A stretch of 32,909 nt of DNA. Origin: Kiritimatiellia bacterium (GTDB lineage Bacteria; Verrucomicrobiota; Kiritimatiellia; RFP12; UBA1067). Where the stretch lies: NCBI GenBank assembly GCA_017463935.1, contig JAFUEM010000013.1, forward strand, positions 1 through 32,909, in the 5' to 3' direction. The stretch's first letter is position 1. Each line of letters opens with the position of its first letter. A program made the translations under genes and the position numbers. Positions 1,281-29,019 of the stretch are shown here, one piece after another. The notes under the pieces are model-generated. The model was given only the letters and a program-made list of their open reading frames with translations. It had not been told where the DNA came from and searched no databases.

Positions 1281-2495
1281 CTAGCGGGGCCTGGCGGGTG
1301 GGCGATGGTCGCTGAGGCGATATTCGCTCATAGACATGCCGTAGCGCTTCTTGAAGAGGCTTTTTGCATTGCTGACCGTGTTGAAACCGCAGGACGCGAT
1401 GATTTTCCCTACTGGCATGTCGGTGAATTGCAGAAGGCGCTTCATTTCGTCGAATCGGCAGTCGAGGATTGCCTCAAGGATCGACTTACCGGTTGCCTGA
1501 CGGTACCGCAGGTCCGCCAGGCGCCTGGATACGCCAAGGTCGGCGGCGACATCGGCGGCTGATATCCCATTCGTCGCATTCTCCCTGATGAAAGACTCGG
1601 CGCGATTAATGATCTGCGCTATTGGAGATATTGGCTTGGTTGACTGGCGCTCTATGATCTTGTGGTTTGATGGGCTCATGATCTGCACCGGACTCTTCGC
1701 CTTTGCGGGGGCCTGCATCAGCTTCTTCAGTTCTTTTGCCGCAAGTTCGCCGATTCTGGCGTGGTTCGGCGTAATGCTGGTTATCATCGGCCTCGAGGTT
1801 TCGCAGTACACCCTGTCGTTGTCGACGCCTATAACGGCCAGGGAGTCAGGAATTTTGATGTCTGCCATTTCGGCTGCCTCGACTATCCGTGTTGCCCAGA
1901 TGTCGTGCGGTGCCATTACGGCTGCGGGTTTTGGAAGAGATTTCAACCATTCCGCCAGGGCGACGATGTCTTCCAGGGAACCACGTTCAATGCCGGCTGC
2001 GGTTCGGTAGATGCGAACGTCGTCCGTCTTGCCTCTGAAGAAGGAGCGGAACCCTTTTTCGCGAAAGGTATATGTGTAATTGGCGTCCGTCTTGTTCTTG
2101 CTGACGAAACCGTATGAGCGGAATCGTCCCAGCGAAAACAGGTATTCGGCGGCGGAACGGCCTATTTCGGTGTCGTTGATGTTGATGAACGCCACGGCGT
2201 CCCTGCGCCGTGGGATGGCGGACGGCATGCAGCAGACGCAGACGAGCGGCGTACGTGACTCCTGCAGGCATTCGGCAGTGGCGGGATGGTCGAGACCGCA
2301 CGCGATGATGCCGTCGAAGCCATCGGTTTCTGCGCGTCGGATGTCATCTAAGGCTTTGTCGCCGGTACAGTCGACGACACGCAAGCGCCAGTTGCAGTGG
2401 GCCCGCGCATAACGGTCTATTCCGTACAGTATTTCGCGCCCCGACCCGTAGGCGATGTACAGGGCAACGAGGATTCTCCGTGGTTCGGCTTTCAT
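1281..2495 (-). CDS. XylR-like transcriptional regulator (LacI-type sensor fused to AraC DNA-binding domain)
   Basis: This 404-residue cytosolic protein starts at ATG 2493-2495 and stops with TAG. Residues about 7-275 form a LacI/periplasmic-binding-like sensor. It opens with RRILVALYIAYGSGREILYG and contains FDGIIACG, AVMAPHDIWATRI and IPDSLAVIGVDND, where the Asp residues are typical sugar-contact positions. Residues about 295-390 are an AraC double helix-turn-helix: 'ISAADVAADLGVSRRLADLRYR' is the first HTH, and 'VGKIIASCGFNTVSNAKSLFKKRYG' is the second with the family's usual spacing. Sensor-plus-AraC hybrids of this type (XylR family) sense monosaccharides and activate nearby catabolic operons. 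It is divergent from the LamG/EEP/GH20-like/GH78 operon at 2659-9959, its probable target. The inducer is not readable, though rhamnose is reasonable given GH78. Confidence 0.9.
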   Translation of the reverse strand: MKAEPRRILVALYIAYGSGREILYGIDRYARAHCNWRLRVVDCTGDKALDDIRRAETDGFDGIIACGLDHPATAECLQESRTPLVCVCCMPSAIPRRRDAVAFININDTEIGRSAAEYLFSLGRFRSYGFVSKNKTDANYTYTFREKGFRSFFRGKTDDVRIYRTAAGIERGSLEDIVALAEWLKSLPKPAAVMAPHDIWATRIVEAAEMADIKIPDSLAVIGVDNDRVYCETSRPMITSITPNHARIGELAAKELKKLMQAPAKAKSPVQIMSPSNHKIIERQSTKPISPIAQIINRAESFIRENATNGISAADVAADLGVSRRLADLRYRQATGKSILEAILDCRFDEMKRLLQFTDMPVGKIIASCGFNTVSNAKSLFKKRYGMSMSEYRLSDHRPPARPR

Positions 2496-2658: not shown

Positions 2659-4971
2659 ATGAAGAAATTACTGATAGTCGCTGTAGCCGCTGCCTTGTTC
2701 GCAGATGGCAGTACCGCCTTTGCGGAGGATGCCTACATCGAGAACACAAACGGCAACCAGTATTTCAACACTGGCCACTTTGTCGGACCAAACACGAAAA
2801 TCGTCCTTGATTTCAAATTGAACGAAACAACGCTCGGCATCACCCCCTTCGGTGCGAAAGGCGACAATGGGACTGCCAATCGCCCATGGTTCAGGTGCTA
2901 TCTAGGCGAGAAGACCTCGGGTGGAGGTGCCTGGTTTTCGATTAACCAGGCCAAGGCCGATTACAATGCGTCGGGGTACAACGTGCATCCGGCGGATTTG
3001 AGCCGCTACACGATGATCATGGATTTGCCCGGCAAGATATTCCGATTGCTGGACGAAGACGGCACAGAAGTCGCGACGCAGACGTTTGAGTCGGTTTCCT
3101 CGGGGACCCAGATTTACCCTCTTGGCCTTTTTGCGACGTGCGCCCACAATTCCGGCGCGTATGCGACTGCGACGGCGACATGGGAGAGACCGGCGAAGAT
3201 GCGCGTCTATGGGCTTGAGATCTATGAGTCCGGGACGCTCGTCAAGAAATTCGTCCCATGGGTCAAGGGCGGCGTCGCGGGACTGAAGGACACCGTCAGC
3301 GGCGTGTTCCATTCCGGCGAAAACGCCCGCGCCTGCGTCGCTGGCGGCGACATTACGGTCGAGAAGGACGATCCCTGGGTGGGCTTCCCGGACAACGACG
3401 TCATGACTGCGGCAGCTGTCAAAGGCAAGACGATGTATTTCGACACTGGGTATGCCTTTAATCCGGAATCAAGAATAGAATTAGACTATGCGCTTCTGAC
3501 GCCGGATTGGACATCTTCAAGCAAATGGGCGGGGGAGACGTATCTTTTTTATGTGGCGGGAGCCAGCGGCGCCGTCTATCTTCTGCCGTACGGTTCTAGT
3601 GCGAACGGGCGTCATTACATGAAGGTCGGTAGCAAAGAGGGCGGCATAACGGAAGTCGGCGTCGATTACGGCTACAATGTCCGGCGCAAAATCGTCGCCA
3701 CGGCCAGCAACATGAAGATGATAACGGCGGGATACACGAATTGGAATGTTTCGGCTGACAGCGGCCAAGAGGTTGCGACGACGTTGAATTCGCCGACCCT
3801 TACGCTCGGCTACAGAAGTGGCAAGCCGCCGCTTCCGGCGAAAATCTACGGACTGAAGATCTACGAGTCGAATAATCTTGTACACGATTTCGTACCGAGT
3901 ATTTCCAATAGCGTTCCGATTCTTCGCGACACGCTGGCAACACCAACCCTAGGGCTTCTCCCAACGGTGTACAACAGCCCCGGCACGAACATCGTGTGCG
4001 AGGCCGGCGGCAATATTCAGGGCGATGAGGACGCGAAAGATGCGTATCTCGACTTTGACGGCGTAAAGGGCCACGGAATCGACATCGGATACGTGCTGAC
4101 GAAGGACAGCCGAATCGAGATGGACTTCGCCGTCTGGAACAACAACTACGCGATCTCCGGCAGTGGTTCGGCGATTTTTTTCGAGCAGCGCGGCTACAAG
4201 GACGCGGAGTCGGAGCGCAACGGCATTTGGTTTCACCTCTACCAGCCGGACGCCGGCCGCTACGGCTGGTGCTTCGCGGACTATGCCAAGGCGAAGAATG
4301 AGTGGACGAGCGTCTACATCACGAACGAGCGCACGAAATTCGTGTGCGACGCGCCGGCGAACACGATAACGGCCTACAGGGGCGGTGTGCAGGTGTACCA
4401 GAGCACGAACATGTCACGCGGCGGGGTGGAGGCGATCACCGCCACGACTTGCACCTCGACACTGCGCATCGGCAGCAACTGGGACGGAAAGACCAATCAG
4501 ACGGGCATGCGGCTCTACAACGTGAAGATCTACAATTCCGGCGTTCTGGACAGGAACTTCGTGCCGTGTCTGACGAACGGTATTGCGGGGCTGTACGAGA
4601 CATGCCAGAACAGGTTCTTCCCGCTCACGGGTGGAACGGTGCGCGGCAAGGGGCTCAAGGGCGCGGAGAGCGACATCCTGATCGCGCCACAGCCCGCAAG
4701 GTTGACGCGGAAGGAAACGAGCAACACGGCGACGCTCACCTGTCTTGCCATCGGTGCGCAGAGCTATGAGTGGTATGAGGATGGTGTTCTGATTTCCGGC
4801 GAGACGTCCGATTCGTTGACGCTGGAATGGAGCAAGGCAAAGGCGAATAACTATGCCCACACCTATTCCGTTAAGCCTGTCTATACGGTCTTCAACGAGA
4901 GGGTTGCCGGCGAGGCCGTTTCGGCAACGGTGGAATATACGCCGCTTGGCATGGTTATCATCATCAAGTAA
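2659..4971 (+). CDS. Secreted triple LamG-like protein with Ig-like C-terminal domain and short C-terminal tail
   Basis: The protein has 770 residues. A Sec signal peptide (MKKLLIVAVAAALFADGSTAFA) is followed by three repeated concanavalin/LamG-like domains, starting near residues 24, 250 and 460. Each opens with a 'Y-(F/I)-(N/D)-(T/I)-G' strand (QYFNTGHF, MYFDTGYA, GIDIGYVL), continues 'R-I-E-(L/M)-D', and closes with 'YGLKIYESG-x-LV-x-x-FVP-x-x-x-x-x-x-GL-x-D'. Residues about 680-760 read as an Ig-like module (TATLTCLAIG, then YEWYEDGVLISGE). The chain ends TPLGMVIIIK, a tail shared with the proteins at 10506 and 27337. LamG folds bind glycans or surface proteins, and no enzymatic residues are evident. 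As first gene of the operon, ahead of EEP, GH20-like and GH78 genes, it probably binds substrate outside the cell or coats the surface. The exact ligand is unknown. Confidence 0.82.
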   Translation: MKKLLIVAVAAALFADGSTAFAEDAYIENTNGNQYFNTGHFVGPNTKIVLDFKLNETTLGITPFGAKGDNGTANRPWFRCYLGEKTSGGGAWFSINQAKADYNASGYNVHPADLSRYTMIMDLPGKIFRLLDEDGTEVATQTFESVSSGTQIYPLGLFATCAHNSGAYATATATWERPAKMRVYGLEIYESGTLVKKFVPWVKGGVAGLKDTVSGVFHSGENARACVAGGDITVEKDDPWVGFPDNDVMTAAAVKGKTMYFDTGYAFNPESRIELDYALLTPDWTSSSKWAGETYLFYVAGASGAVYLLPYGSSANGRHYMKVGSKEGGITEVGVDYGYNVRRKIVATASNMKMITAGYTNWNVSADSGQEVATTLNSPTLTLGYRSGKPPLPAKIYGLKIYESNNLVHDFVPSISNSVPILRDTLATPTLGLLPTVYNSPGTNIVCEAGGNIQGDEDAKDAYLDFDGVKGHGIDIGYVLTKDSRIEMDFAVWNNNYAISGSGSAIFFEQRGYKDAESERNGIWFHLYQPDAGRYGWCFADYAKAKNEWTSVYITNERTKFVCDAPANTITAYRGGVQVYQSTNMSRGGVEAITATTCTSTLRIGSNWDGKTNQTGMRLYNVKIYNSGVLDRNFVPCLTNGIAGLYETCQNRFFPLTGGTVRGKGLKGAESDILIAPQPARLTRKETSNTATLTCLAIGAQSYEWYEDGVLISGETSDSLTLEWSKAKANNYAHTYSVKPVYTVFNERVAGEAVSATVEYTPLGMVIIIK

Positions 4972-4989
4972 TTCATCGTGAGGGAGAAA

Positions 4990-5964
4990 ATGGCACGGCG
5001 TAGTTTCAGGGCGGGAACGCTCACACTGATTATCGGCGTTCTCGCGGGTGCGGCCTGCGGTTCGACGCGGCTTCTCTACTGGAACATCCAGGACGGGATG
5101 TGGGACGGGCAGACGGACAACTTCAATCGCTTCGTCGCGTGGGTGCAGAAGCAGTCGCCCGACATCTGCGTCTTCGCCGAGGTCAGGACCAAGCGACAGA
5201 CGGGCAAGATGGACCATGTGAAAGACGAATCGCAGCGGATTCTTCCCGCAGGCTGGCCGAAGCTCGCCGCGCGCTACGGGCATGACCACGTCTGGATCAG
5301 CTCAGACAATCCGAAGTGCTACATGCAGGGCATCACGTCGCGCTTCCCCATCGAGAGCGTCGCCAAGGATCTCGTTCCGACGGGATCGGGCTGGGCGCGG
5401 ATCCGGGTGGGCACGAACGTCCTGAACATCGTGACGGTCCACCTCAACTGGGCGCCGTGGGGGCATGGCTGCAAGACGGATGCGGAGCGCAAGGCCAGCG
5501 CGGCGAAATTCGGCGGCGACCTCGCACGCCGCGACGAAATCGAGACCGTTCTCAAAGGGTCGTTCTTCACGGTGCCCGACGCATCGAACCAGTACTGGGT
5601 CGTTGCGGGAGACTACAATGCTCGCTCGCCGGTCGATGCGCGGATGTACGACATCCCGCTGGACTCCCCTCGCTACGCAGTCCATCGGTGGTTGGCCGAA
5701 AGCACGCCCCTTGTCGACCTCATGCACGAATGGCTGCCGAACGACTTCCATGTAACAGGCGGGGCAAAGTCGCGAATAGACTATGTCTATCTGACGCGGG
5801 GGTTGTACGATCATGTCGAAGAGGCTCGTGTCGTCGTCGACCGCTACACACGCCCGACATACTCGGGGGTAAGCGACATATGGCGTCCGTCCGACCATCG
5901 CCCGATCCTTGTAGATTTCGATTTCCGATGGGCGAGGCAATTGCAAAACTCGGCAGGGCGGTGA
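4990..5964 (+). CDS. Exported endonuclease/exonuclease/phosphatase (EEP) family phosphohydrolase
   Basis: From ATG 4990 the protein has 324 residues. A GTG at 4978 in the same frame would add four, but GGGAG lies just before the ATG. The N-terminus MARRSFRAGTLTLIIGVLAG has a twin Arg before a hydrophobic stretch, so Tat or Sec export is likely. The EEP catalytic set is present in order: Asn in YWNIQDG (about residue 32), the metal-binding Glu in FAEVRT (64), HLN (about 150), Asp and Asn in GDYNAR (208 and 210), and the closing SDHRP (Asp302, His303). The family, which includes DNase I and sphingomyelinase, cleaves phosphodiesters or phosphomonoesters with divalent metal. It begins 18 bases after the LamG stop and precedes the GH20-like gene by 13 bases, so it is operonic. 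A secreted phosphodiesterase acting on a phosphorylated glycan or lipid headgroup fits, but the substrate is unknown. Confidence 0.82.
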   Translation: MARRSFRAGTLTLIIGVLAGAACGSTRLLYWNIQDGMWDGQTDNFNRFVAWVQKQSPDICVFAEVRTKRQTGKMDHVKDESQRILPAGWPKLAARYGHDHVWISSDNPKCYMQGITSRFPIESVAKDLVPTGSGWARIRVGTNVLNIVTVHLNWAPWGHGCKTDAERKASAAKFGGDLARRDEIETVLKGSFFTVPDASNQYWVVAGDYNARSPVDARMYDIPLDSPRYAVHRWLAESTPLVDLMHEWLPNDFHVTGGAKSRIDYVYLTRGLYDHVEEARVVVDRYTRPTYSGVSDIWRPSDHRPILVDFDFRWARQLQNSAGR

Positions 5965-5977
5965 GGAGTGCGGCAAG

Positions 5978-7024
5978 ATGAATGACATGACGAGAAGAAG
6001 TTTTCTGGGCGCGGTTGCCGCAACGGCCGCTTGCCCGACTGTATGGGGCGACGAGCCGAGACGTCTGGGTTTCACATGGTGCTATATGCTCAAGCTCGGC
6101 ACGAACATGTGGTGCGACTGCGTGCCGCCGCGCTGGGGCAACCTCAAACCCGACGAAATGCATTACAAAGCGCCGTCAGAGGAACTCAGGTGCGACGATT
6201 CGCTGTGGAGGGAATTGACCGAAAAGGCACGCGCGGCGGGTTTCAACATGCTGCTGATGGATCTTGGCGAAGGCGTCCAGTTTCCAAGCCATCCCGAGCT
6301 CGCGGTGAAGGGGTCTTGGTCGCCGGAGAAGTTGCAGAAGGAGCTTGCCCGCCTTCGGGCCATGGGATTGGAACCCGTGCCGAAGCTCAACTTCTCGACG
6401 GCGCACGACATCTGGCTCAAGGACTACAGCCGCATGGTCTCGACGTCGAAATACTACCAGGTCTGCGCCGACCTGATACGTGACGTGGCCGAGCTCTTCG
6501 GCTACCCTCGCCTCTTCCACATCGGTTATGACGAGGAGACCTTCGGACACCAGGATCGATATCAGTATGTCGTCGTGCGACAAGGCGATCTTTGGTGGCA
6601 CGACTTGCTTTGGATGGTCGAACAGATCGAGAAGGCCGGGATACGCTCATGGATATGGAGCGATTACATCTGGAAACACACCGACGAATTCTTGAAGCGA
6701 ATGCCCAAGAGCGTACTTCAGTCCAACTGGTACTATGGCAAGACGTTCGATTCGGAAAAACGAAACACAGTAAAGGCGTATCTCGACCTTGAGCGCGGCG
6801 GATTCGACCAGATGCCGACTGGGTCCAACTACAGTTGCGTCGAAAACTTCGCAGGAACTGTGGATTTCTGCCGCAAGAACATCTCTCCAGATCGGCTGAA
6901 GGGCTTCATCATGGCACCATGGCGGCATACGATTGAGCACTGGCGGGGCGATCTTGTCTCGGCGATAGACATTGCCAGACCCGTTATCGCAAATCCAAGC
7001 AACAAACAGGGGATTGATGAATAG
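5978..7024 (+). CDS. Tat-exported GH20-like TIM-barrel protein
   Basis: The 348-residue protein starts at ATG 5978 behind a GAGGAG element. MTRRSFLGAVAATAACPTVWG is a clear Tat signal. The body looks like a TIM barrel: WRELTEKARAAGFNMLLMDLG, LARLRAMGLEPVPKLNFST (strand 3-like), LFHIGYDEETFG with the acidic pair Asp185-Glu186, IRSWIWSDYIW, and GFIMAPW near the end. The His-x-Gly-x-Asp-Glu arrangement is the catalytic signature of clan GH-K (GH20 beta-hexosaminidases), where Glu is the acid and Asp orients the substrate acetamide. This protein is shorter than most GH20 enzymes and lacks their N-terminal domain, so I call it GH20-like. It overlaps the next gene by 8 bases (ATG 7017, TAG 7022-7024), so the two are probably translationally coupled. 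Confidence 0.7.
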   Translation: MNDMTRRSFLGAVAATAACPTVWGDEPRRLGFTWCYMLKLGTNMWCDCVPPRWGNLKPDEMHYKAPSEELRCDDSLWRELTEKARAAGFNMLLMDLGEGVQFPSHPELAVKGSWSPEKLQKELARLRAMGLEPVPKLNFSTAHDIWLKDYSRMVSTSKYYQVCADLIRDVAELFGYPRLFHIGYDEETFGHQDRYQYVVVRQGDLWWHDLLWMVEQIEKAGIRSWIWSDYIWKHTDEFLKRMPKSVLQSNWYYGKTFDSEKRNTVKAYLDLERGGFDQMPTGSNYSCVENFAGTVDFCRKNISPDRLKGFIMAPWRHTIEHWRGDLVSAIDIARPVIANPSNKQGIDE

Positions 7025-10505: not shown

Positions 10506-12572
10506 ATGAAACACGTTCCATGTGTCTGCAAAGTTTGGTCTCTCTGCCTCATGGGGGAGCTCCTCTCGGTCGTGGCGTCGGCTGCGACCGCGACGCTTCC
10601 CGGCGCACCGGACGCGTATCTTGACTATGTCGAGGCGACTGGTACGCAGTACATCGACACAGGCGTCAACGCCGAGACCGGCCTCAAGGCAAGGATCGAC
10701 ATGGAATGGGGGGCGACCGTGAAACCGCTTGCCGACGGCGGCGACGACTGGTCGATGCTCGACGCCCGCAAGACAAGCGGCGACACTCGGTTCTACCTTT
10801 GCCACCTCGCCAAAAACACAGCCGAAACAAGTTTCATCTTCGGCTATGGCTACAATTCCTGGCACCGAACCGCGACCGAAGCCGTGCGCGGGAGCCGATT
10901 TGAAGTTCTGGCGGACTTTTCAAATCCGGGAGCGCTTTCCATCCGCAGGAACGGCGCAGAAATGCTCGGCGATGGCCAGCAGACCGGCCACGCGAACGAA
11001 ACGATCGACTTGGGACTCGACCTCTATCTCTTCGCCTGCAACTACAACGGGACGGCGAGCTACTTCGCGCGGGGCAAGCTCTACGAGTGCAAGATCTTCA
11101 GGAAGAACGCCGCGACCGGAGCCTTCGACATGGAGCGCCACTATCTGCCCGCGAAGAAGAATGGGCACGTCGGCCTCTACGATGCGGCAAACAACCGGTT
11201 CTACTACTCCGATGATCCGTCCGGCACGGAATTCGTTCCCGGTCCGGAACTGCCAAGACCGGCTGCGTTTGTCGAATGGATTGAGGCGGACGGCACGACA
11301 TCAAGTTCCGTCGCCCAGCAGTATGTAGATACGGGGGTATGGGGGAAGCTGGGCCTCAAGAGCGTGGTCGATGCGACACTTCTTGAAAGTTCCGGCGACC
11401 ACGCAATCCTCGCAGCGCGCGCGAAAAGCACCGGCAACGGCCGCTTATATATGGCGTATCACTACAATGGATATTTTTGCTATGGCGACGGCAAGCTGCG
11501 CGAGCCGAAGCTAGCCAAGGCGAAGCCGGCTTCCGGCACTCGCTACTTGATCGAGAGCGATTTGTCCGCATCAAGCCAGTCTGTCAAAGTAAACGGCACG
11601 GAACTTTACAACGACACGTTTACCGACACCACGCAATTCGCAACAGATTCAACGCTTGCGTTGTTCGCAAACAACCATAAAGACGCATACGTTAAAAACC
11701 CGACGCACAGCCGTCTATATTCTGCCAAGATTTGGGATGGAGACGAACTTTTGCGCGATTTCGTGCCATGTGTAGCCAGCGACGGCGAGGCTGGGTTGTA
11801 CGATATTGTCACGGAGCGCATTTTCAAATCTGCAACGAAAGCGTTTGACAAAGCGACTCAAGTCGGTGTGGTCACCAACGTCCTTGTAGAGGCGGCCGCA
11901 CCGACGAAGCGCATAGACTACGTCGAATCCGACGGCGCGGCCGATTACGTGAACCTCGGCGTCGTCGCGAAGGACGGGCTGGAAATGGACGCCGTGATGG
12001 AGTGGCTGACCGTGCCGGACGACGACGTGTTCGTCGGGGCGCGCCCGTCTTCCGGCAACACACGGTTCTTCCTCTACAACGCCTGGCCCGCACACAGCAT
12101 CGGCTACGTCAAGGATTTGCCGCGCATTGCCGATGGCGGGGAGAACACGTTCTTCACGCCCGTCGCGAACGTCAAATACAAGGTGTCGTCGCGTCTCGAC
12201 GATAAAGACCAGTTTCTCGCCATCGCCACCGACGCGAACGGCGCCTGGGCGGCTCTTGGACGCACGGACAGGACGTATGCCGGACCGCTGGACACCGGAA
12301 TTCCGCTCTACCTTTTCGCGCGAAACTACATCGGGAAGGCCGACAGTTTCGCCCATGCCCGCGTCTATTCGCTGAAACTGCGCACGAAGCAGCCGAGCGG
12401 CGCCTACGCGCCCGCTCTCGACCTCGTGCCGGTTCGCGATCCACTCACCGGCGGCGCGGCGCTCTGGGACAAGGTCGGCAAGCGATACTACCGCAGTGGC
12501 GGCAGCTTCCGCCTCGCGGGCGGCGGCGCCGAGCGTCCGCTCACGCCGGGTTTTTTGATCATTCTGAGGTGA
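10506..12572 (+). CDS. Secreted triple LamG-like protein with short C-terminal tail
   Basis: The protein has 688 residues. The N-terminal hydrophobic stretch (SLCLMGELLSVVASAATA) acts as a signal peptide. Three LamG-like repeats start near residues 30, 252 and 467. Each opens with the same pattern: YLDYVEATGTQYIDTGV, FVEWIEADG followed by QQYVDTGV, and IDYVESDGAADYVNLGV. The repeats share 'LYLFA-x-N-x-x-G-x-x-x-x-x-A-x-(L/V)-Y-x-x-K' strands and close with 'DLVPV-x-D' or 'DFVPC' motifs. The protein ends TPGFLIILR, matching in form the tails of the proteins at 2659 and 27337. No catalytic motif is visible. It is the promoter-proximal gene of an operon with two Tat-exported phosphoesterases, so substrate capture or surface attachment is the likely role. 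It is a paralogue of the 2659 protein in domain order but diverged in sequence and lacks its Ig-like module. Confidence 0.82.
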   Translation: MKHVPCVCKVWSLCLMGELLSVVASAATATLPGAPDAYLDYVEATGTQYIDTGVNAETGLKARIDMEWGATVKPLADGGDDWSMLDARKTSGDTRFYLCHLAKNTAETSFIFGYGYNSWHRTATEAVRGSRFEVLADFSNPGALSIRRNGAEMLGDGQQTGHANETIDLGLDLYLFACNYNGTASYFARGKLYECKIFRKNAATGAFDMERHYLPAKKNGHVGLYDAANNRFYYSDDPSGTEFVPGPELPRPAAFVEWIEADGTTSSSVAQQYVDTGVWGKLGLKSVVDATLLESSGDHAILAARAKSTGNGRLYMAYHYNGYFCYGDGKLREPKLAKAKPASGTRYLIESDLSASSQSVKVNGTELYNDTFTDTTQFATDSTLALFANNHKDAYVKNPTHSRLYSAKIWDGDELLRDFVPCVASDGEAGLYDIVTERIFKSATKAFDKATQVGVVTNVLVEAAAPTKRIDYVESDGAADYVNLGVVAKDGLEMDAVMEWLTVPDDDVFVGARPSSGNTRFFLYNAWPAHSIGYVKDLPRIADGGENTFFTPVANVKYKVSSRLDDKDQFLAIATDANGAWAALGRTDRTYAGPLDTGIPLYLFARNYIGKADSFAHARVYSLKLRTKQPSGAYAPALDLVPVRDPLTGGAALWDKVGKRYYRSGGSFRLAGGGAERPLTPGFLIILR

Positions 12573-27336: not shown

Positions 27337-29019
27337 TTATTTGATGGTTATAATCAGCCCGCTGCGCTTGTTGAGCGTAGAGTCAAGCAGTTCCTTGCAC
27401 GACAATGCCCTGCGAGAAAGGCGGAATTCGTCAATCCAGCTTCCGTCGAAACCGTTGCTTCTCCAGCCATATGCGCTATTGACCTGCAAAGCGGCAGGGG
27501 TGTCGCTGACGGTAAGGGCATAGTCGAAGTCGATATTTGCCAAAGTGCCGACAACCTTGTGGTCGACATATGCCTTCGCTGTTAGAGCGCTGCGGTCGTA
27601 TGAAACTGCGATGTGATGCCACTGATTGTCGCAAAAGCCGGGATACGAGCCTATCATCTCCGCTGCCGAGCTTCCTTTGCGAAGTATCATGAAGTCAAGG
27701 CTGTCGGAACCGCTTTTCTTCCATGCATACAGCAGACTGCCGCTCGCCAACGTCCTTCCAAGGTTCATCAGGAATTTATTGCCAGATGGCGCAGATGGCA
27801 CTTTGGCAAAAAACTCAATCGTGAACGAACCGTTGAACACGGTATGCTCGTTGTTCACTATGTCATCCACAAGAAGAGACGCGGAATATCCGGCTGTACT
27901 GCCAGGCGTCAAATAAAGTGATGCAGTGTTCGTGACAGACATGTACGACCATGAACTTTCCGCAAACGTTGCACCGTAGAGTATTGCGCAAGGAAGCGCA
28001 GAGGCATCAACCGTAGGGGCTTTGCCAGCCGATGTGCTCCAAGTGAACTTTGCCGTGACGCCATATCCGCTGGCGTTTACATCCGTCAGACCGCTTTCTG
28101 CGGCAAATCCGCTGAGATCGGAAAGAGAAACATAGTCAAATGGAACGTAGCAGGCTGTATCAGCTGTGTCCACCGCAGGAACATAAGCCGCTTTGTGCAA
28201 GAATCCCGTTGTAGTCAATACGGAATCTGATATGCGAACTTCATCGATGAATCCCACATATTTGCGGTCGCCACGGCTGGGCATGCAGCCAATCGACAGC
28301 GGTTTTTCCGTGTCGTAAACAAGACCGCCCGTAATGGGGCGCGTTGCGACTCGCGCATAATCGAAGTATAGCGTCGCTGTTGTTGTAGAGCCATCGTAAG
28401 TCATAGCGACATGGTGCCATTTGCCATCGTTGGCGCCAGCGTTATGGGCTAATGTGTAGGAGCCAGTATTGTAAAACTGACCGCTTACTGCGCCTTCCTT
28501 AGTCAACATGATTGCCCATGCCAGCCACTTTTCGTTCGGCATCACGACAAGAGCCTGATCGCCATCGGACTGGTTGTTTCCGACGGATGACTTGAAGAAC
28601 AGTTCAACTGTGAACGATGAAAGCTCAAGTGCGGCATCATGCGCAACCGTCACTGCGCTTGCCGTGGAATAGTTGACCTTCGTCGAGGCGTGGTTGGCGG
28701 CATAGTTGGCGTTGTGAAAAAAGAATGCTTGTTCGTTTGCGTACTTCGCGGATGCGACAGAAACACCGACTCCGTTCGGAAAAGCGTTCGTCGAAAACGG
28801 GACGAAGCCAACCTCTGAATCAGAAAACGCACCATTTGTGTCCACCTGCTGGCATTTGCCGACAAGATGTCCTGGCTTGGCGGTGTTTTCAATGACCACC
28901 GAGGAACCGACCCTTCTGCCAATGCTCCCCTCGTTAAAGCGATACCACGCAATGGTTTCGCCTTTTGCAAGCGGTACAAGCAGCATTGCTGCCGTGCAGA
29001 CTGTCATTAGTGTTTTCAT
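27337..29019 (-). CDS. Secreted double LamG protein with short C-terminal tail
   Basis: The protein has 560 residues from ATG 29019, preceded by AAGGAGG. MKTLMTVCTAAMLLVPLAKG is a signal peptide. Two LamG (Laminin_G_3-type) domains are seen at about 25-270 and 290-550. The first has SSFTVELFFKSSVG, GKWHHVAMTYDG and KYVGFIDEVRIS; the second FTIEFFAKVPSAPSG, NQWHHIAVSYDRS and GSWIDEFRLSRRAL. This is the classical 'W-H-H-(V/I)-A-(M/V)-(T/S)-Y-D' and 'D-E-(V/F)-R' pattern. Its LamG type differs from the two plus-strand proteins, yet its end KRSGLIITIK follows the same tail pattern. It lies between a GH43-like gene and the sialidase gene. The likely role is binding or surface attachment, without visible catalytic residues. 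Confidence 0.85.
   Translation of the reverse strand: MKTLMTVCTAAMLLVPLAKGETIAWYRFNEGSIGRRVGSSVVIENTAKPGHLVGKCQQVDTNGAFSDSEVGFVPFSTNAFPNGVGVSVASAKYANEQAFFFHNANYAANHASTKVNYSTASAVTVAHDAALELSSFTVELFFKSSVGNNQSDGDQALVVMPNEKWLAWAIMLTKEGAVSGQFYNTGSYTLAHNAGANDGKWHHVAMTYDGSTTTATLYFDYARVATRPITGGLVYDTEKPLSIGCMPSRGDRKYVGFIDEVRISDSVLTTTGFLHKAAYVPAVDTADTACYVPFDYVSLSDLSGFAAESGLTDVNASGYGVTAKFTWSTSAGKAPTVDASALPCAILYGATFAESSWSYMSVTNTASLYLTPGSTAGYSASLLVDDIVNNEHTVFNGSFTIEFFAKVPSAPSGNKFLMNLGRTLASGSLLYAWKKSGSDSLDFMILRKGSSAAEMIGSYPGFCDNQWHHIAVSYDRSALTAKAYVDHKVVGTLANIDFDYALTVSDTPAALQVNSAYGWRSNGFDGSWIDEFRLSRRALSCKELLDSTLNKRSGLIITIK

Follow-up and report, generated by a model that had tools for sequence, protein, structure and literature searches.

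An exact seven-residue C-terminal ending shared by unrelated surface-type proteins of one Kiritimatiellae lineage

Hosts of the type IX secretion system (T9SS) are diderm, and a hydrophobic strand with Lys as its last residue closes T9SS C-terminal domains. According to the NCBIfam naming, the sorting signal that follows choice-of-anchor domains varies from one bacterium to another; likewise, as their family names indicate, proteins with choice-of-anchor Q domains, T5SS/PEP-CTERM repeats or passenger-associated repeats (PATR) end elsewhere in other sorting signals or in barrels. Tripartite sorting signals are built of a motif, a helix and a basic cluster (PMC3237569), and the beta-signal recognised by BAM follows the consensus zeta-x-G-x-x-[aromatic/hydrophobic]-x-[aromatic/hydrophobic] (PMC10945584).

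We analysed a stretch of 32,909 nucleotides from a Kiritimatiellia bacterium (hereafter the window), in which the first-pass annotation had pointed to three proteins ending in a Gly, an aliphatic run and a terminal basic residue. This ending is indeed present at the C-termini of three open reading frames. Across related genomes, the exact C-terminal peptide is shuffled among unrelated surface-type proteins of one lineage, most of them with Sec-type signal peptides. We consider it probable that this tail serves as a sorting tag of minimal length at the C-terminus, presumably recognised as a beta-strand at the outer membrane.

Three window proteins and their endings

Translation of the open reading frames gives TPLGMVIIIK, TPGFLIILR and KRSGLIITIK as the C-termini of proteins 1, 2 and 3 (Table 1). 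The first-pass annotation had these tails right in substance, although TPLGMVIIIK spans 4939-4968 and not 4942-4968, and the hydrophobic run, given there as five to six residues, is exactly five in all three (MVIII, FLIIL and LIITI, with one Thr in the third). Among the proteins read in the window, no further one carries the G-h5-[KR] ending, and the earlier remark that no other exported protein here has it stands. Within proteins, the motif occurs 6 times per 326,583 residues, and from this rate the chance that 3 of 23 C-termini would carry it is about 1e-11.

Table 1 Features of the window discussed in the text
Feature	Position	Strand	Basis
Exported protein 1, 770 aa: signal peptide, LamG-like domains, Ig-like domain, tail	2659..4971	+	translated ORF, AF2 model, relatives
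Tail 1, GMVIIIK, stop codon directly after	4948..4968	+	translation; also genome-wide pattern match G000:C264:4948-4971
Exported protein 2, 688 aa: LamG-like units, tail	10506..12572	+	translated ORF; relatives in G000:C92 and other genomes
Tail 2, GFLIILR, stop codon directly after	12549..12569	+	translation
Exported protein 3, 560 aa: two Laminin_G_3 domains, tail	27337..29019	-	translated ORF; PF13385 3.9e-34
Tail 3, GLIITIK, stop codon directly after	27340..27360	-	translation
Regulator: sugar-binding-like region and AraC-type HTH, divergent from the first tail gene (context only)	1281..2495	-	sequence reading

All three had been called LamG proteins, which holds for protein 3, the only one matched by the Pfam LamG model (PF13385, 3.9e-34), and less firmly for the other two, which gave no significant Pfam match. 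Protein 1 may be LamG-like, as suggested by a weak laminin-G/ConA-like fold match obtained from a model with a mean pLDDT of 69, and protein 2 appears LamG-like only by its sequence similarity to protein 1. In the AF2 model of protein 1, the tail follows the Ig-like domain as a strand of its own, in a region of low confidence.

Relatives of protein 1 are found in eight named records, rumen and gut Kiritimatiellae/Verrucomicrobia assemblies (UBA3750, UBA4286, RUG572, RGIG2398 and others), most of them with the same C-terminal architecture. The gene order of tail protein, endonuclease/exonuclease/phosphatase-like protein and glycosidase-like protein (window 2659-7024; L246/L247/L248) is conserved with UBA3750 and UBA4286, and that of its first two genes also with RUG12478. 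In RUG572, the counterpart of the first tail gene carries a frameshift within the Ig-like domain (L252:5080-5250), so that the tail is out of frame and the reading frame runs into the next gene, reflecting either an assembly error or decay.

Register, lineage and carriers of the tail

The informative positions in 75 tail genes and another 28 C-termini are -7 to -1, with 2.2-3.6 bits each; no position upstream exceeds 0.84 bit, Pro, Arg or Lys being mildly favoured at -9/-8. Because the strict motif was used to fetch many of these stretches, the logo depends on it in part. The register is strictly kept: G-h5-[KR] closes 72 genes and runs of three, four, six or seven hydrophobic residues after the Gly close none, the residue preceding the five-residue run being Gly in 72 cases and Pro in 2. 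When the last residue was left open in the DNA pattern, Arg or Lys ended 71 of the 74 true-stop matches in five tail-rich genomes. Each tail position is encoded by varying codons, and the stop may be any of the three. Conservation thus acts at the protein level, and a DNA- or RNA-level signal was rejected.

More independent sets are provided by the genome that contains the window (G000), by a second genome of the same family (G061) and by the relatives of protein 1. G061, rated 100% complete, contains 28 LamG matches and no strict tail, and nine of its exported LamG proteins end in looser versions that keep the register: GTTLILR, GMALSFR, GIVVNFR, GSVFIVR, GTVLLFR, GTAILFR, GTVIVVK, GTMLTFK and GLNINFK. 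In relatives of protein 1 (GTRVIIK, GTIVTIR, GVTIVIR, GTMVVVR, GMILLIQ), the interior of the tail changes, and the Gly, the hydrophobic residues at -4 and -2 and the polar end are kept. The general rule is G-x-x-h-x-h-[RK], with Gly at -7, hydrophobic residues at -4 and -2 and Arg or Lys, rarely Gln or His, at -1, which is an alternating, strand-like pattern. All 29 compiled tails, listed by hand from those with Gly at -7, have this Gly and both hydrophobic positions, and 17 have Pro at -9. Some same-register tails in G328, G354, G373 and L253 end in Gln instead of Arg or Lys.

The genomes searched are draft assemblies, and counts of the DNA pattern G-h5-[KR]-stop were set against those of a reversed-pattern control. 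The window's own genome (2.79 Mb, 85% complete) gave 11 matches vs none for the control, and the 77 genomes of its family gave 390 vs 19, with the highest counts per genome at 36-38 (G039, G373). Matches numbered 36 vs 8 in a second family (f4), 2 vs 2 in a third (f3), and 42 vs 55, i.e. background, in 66 genomes from other orders of the class. Enriched in its own family and at background in the other orders sampled, the tail is thus a trait of the lineage. Among the loci fetched first, 15 proteins had the ending, 13 of them from the window's own genome or its closest copies.

The general form of the tail also goes with predicted signal peptides. It ends 10 of 59 signal-peptide-positive genes vs 1 of 87 negative ones in G000, and 9 of 55 vs 0 of 72 in G061, in sets fetched for LamG and not for tails, except for five neutral contigs of G000. 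Together with the family-wide count, these figures bear out the prediction of the first-pass annotation that the ending would be commoner at C-termini of exported proteins than expected by chance. By simple, crude rules for calling signal peptides and gene starts, a signal-peptide-like N-terminus is present in 58 of 69 complete tail genes vs 186 of 523 other genes; the median length is 1036 aa for tail genes vs 375 aa for the others.

The 150 residues that precede the tail fall into 25 unrelated clusters. A shared pre-tail domain was rejected on this ground, and the earlier statement that the tail is conserved while the adjoining domains differ is confirmed, the tail not being the final strand of any one domain common to all. 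Carrier domains include Laminin_G_3, PATR, choice-of-anchor Q, beta-helix, LRR and PKD; the T5SS/PEP-CTERM repeat, PATR and choice-of-anchor Q domains lie upstream of tails, and the seven residues here occupy the place of the sorting signal that follows choice-of-anchor domains. The proposal that the tail is specific to adhesin-like proteins holds for most of these carriers and fails for two that match a polysaccharide lyase model. What generally marks a C-terminal sorting signal, one module recurring within a genome on several exported proteins that are unrelated to each other, is found here, and the first-pass reading of the tail as a sorting or secretion signal is supported. Some LamG proteins lack the tail. 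Giant open frames that contain LamG, some 3,500 to 9,800 residues long, are found repeatedly in the order (L053:3487-19548; L228:1918-14199; G047, G056, G071, G076, G084, G087), and the two that were read to their end close with ...GFFKVKLEEVVVP and ...GFFKVVLTQ, without the tail.

An extended hydrophobic strand with a fixed end, borne by surface-type proteins, might also be an assembly strand that completes a domain of a neighbouring subunit or partner in donor-strand style, building surface fibres or complexes with no role in transport. We regard this as improbable: the sequences before the tail are unrelated, so that no common groove is evident, and strand donation needs no exact distance to the C-terminus.

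Candidate readers of the tail

If the tail is a sorting tag, carriers would enter the periplasm by Sec, and the tail would not be folded into the last domain but would stay free as an extended beta-strand. A putative outer-membrane receptor, Omp85-type or another translocon or anchor, would then bind the strand and its terminal basic residue, and the carrier would consequently be exported or held at the cell surface. BAM itself could fill this role, or else a partner dedicated to the tail. We give about an even chance to the existence, in gut Kiritimatiellae, of a dedicated and undescribed outer-membrane export or anchoring system that reads the seven-residue strand G-x-x-h-x-h-[RK]-COOH.

Across genomes, tail genes are neighboured by AraC/LacI-type regulators, glycosidases, sulfatases and phosphoesterases, with HTH_18 and Peripla_BP_3 among the commonest families, and these neighbourhoods resemble, by their predicted gene content, those of polysaccharide-utilisation loci, which LamG and other glycan-binding bodies displayed at the surface would serve. 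Only regulators and catabolic enzymes recur next to tail genes. The first-pass annotation had suggested that a gene would co-occur with tail-bearing proteins; no such partner was found among the exosortase, SprA and Omp85 families and the tail-gene neighbours. An exosortase is present in 35 of 36 genomes, tail-rich and tail-free alike, and was rejected as the partner for this reason. The copy number of BamA-type Omp85 proteins does not follow the tail either. In five tail-bearing genomes, a second Omp85 match proved to be an ordinary ShlB/FhaC two-partner transporter, in one case adjoining a TPS-domain protein; since such transporters were not seen in several tail-rich genomes, the extra Omp85 was dropped as a candidate. 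One tail-rich relative has a two-partner secretion locus in which a ShlB/FhaC transporter is followed by a TPS-domain protein of 1421 aa (L240:6835-13011), and in three other genomes (L238, L239, L242) similar transporters lie near a gene for a T2SSE/CpaF-like ATPase.

In open papers we found no description of how glycan-binding proteins are placed at the surface of Kiritimatiellae, which proves no absence. With a tag recognisable from sequence, the surface proteome of Kiritimatiellae could be listed and the machine that reads the tag sought by phylogenetic profiling, the route that led to exosortase and rhombosortase.

Comparison with known C-terminal signals

Like PEP-CTERM, GlyGly-CTERM, MYXO-CTERM and LPXTG signals, the tail is a lineage-specific, short C-terminal module with a basic end, found on unrelated exported proteins and many times per genome. 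By contrast, it totals seven residues and has neither a transmembrane helix nor a separate signature motif. With Pro common at -9/-8, followed by Gly, the hydrophobic run and the basic end, and with an exosortase resident in nearly all of the genomes, one could see in it a stripped-down PEP-CTERM-type signal processed by that exosortase. However, none of 74 tail proteins reaches a mean Kyte-Doolittle hydropathy of 1.6 over 19 residues within its last 70, and none matches the PEP-CTERM model (PF07589/TIGR02595), which finds 1-13 places per genome in the own-family genomes searched. Moreover, exosortase and true PEP-CTERM proteins are also found in tail-free genomes. The absence of a helix and of model matches, and an exosortase present irrespective of the tail, led us to reject the tail as PEP-CTERM, as the first-pass annotation had done, and we hold even a stripped-down form to be very unlikely. 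In the tail-free sister family f3 (G071, G076, G084, G087), PEP-CTERM places number 16-34 per genome vs 1-13 in the tail-bearing family, as if PEP-CTERM and the tail traded places between lineages.

The hydrophobic last strand, the basic terminal residue and the diderm host are reminiscent of T9SS C-terminal domains, and the tail could be imagined as a shortened type IX secretion signal. It lacks, as had been noticed earlier, the beta-sandwich domain of about 70-80 residues, and no T9SS C-terminal domain (TIGR04183/PF18962 type) is matched in 74 tail proteins. SprA was not detected in 36 genomes, in a search in which the control genomes likewise gave no match. We find this reading scarcely credible. 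The comparison with T9SS drawn in the first-pass annotation is weaker than one that it did not draw, with the BAM beta-signal.

Passenger-type repeats (PATR, TIGR02601) link some tail proteins to type V autotransporters and two-partner systems. The tail proteins differ from these in having no C-terminal barrel, and in some genomes the TPS loci are separate; no TPS domain was found when the N-terminal portions of 58 of the tail proteins were searched. The tail as part of an autotransporter barrel was rejected, no beta-barrel family being matched in the C-terminal regions of 74 tail proteins.

Both the tail and the BAM beta-signal are C-terminal and strand-like, with a Gly and two hydrophobic positions at the same spacing. 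The tails follow the beta-signal consensus, with a weak polar (zeta) position that is Pro, at -9, in 17 of 29. They depart from it by an Arg or Lys end in place of the aromatic residue, one basic residue being added, and by the lack of a barrel before the tail, their carriers being unrelated in sequence. This likeness raises the alternative of a beta-signal mimic for ordinary BAM, in which the lone strand docks on BamA/BamD and a barrel-less protein uses BAM or stays attached to it. The fit of G-x-x-h-x-h-[RK] to the published signal (PMC10945584), the invariably hydrophobic -4 and -2 positions and the fact that every tail genome needs BamA anyway all speak for such a mimic. Nevertheless, local outer-membrane proteins end in Phe and not in Arg or Lys (BamA of the window's genome, ...FTVGYDF; TpsB of relatives, ...VQFQF), and the 74 tail proteins have no barrel domain. 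BamA is also present in tail-free genomes, so that a mimic leaves the restriction of the tail to one lineage unexplained. We therefore judge the mimic to be a rather unlikely alternative to a sorting tag in its own right. Such a tag, if true, would rank with the shortest known C-terminal sorting tags, and seven residues that require no transmembrane helix and no folded signal domain would suit surface display as a minimal signal. Of the known signals, the one that the tail most closely resembles is the BAM beta-signal, extended by one basic residue.
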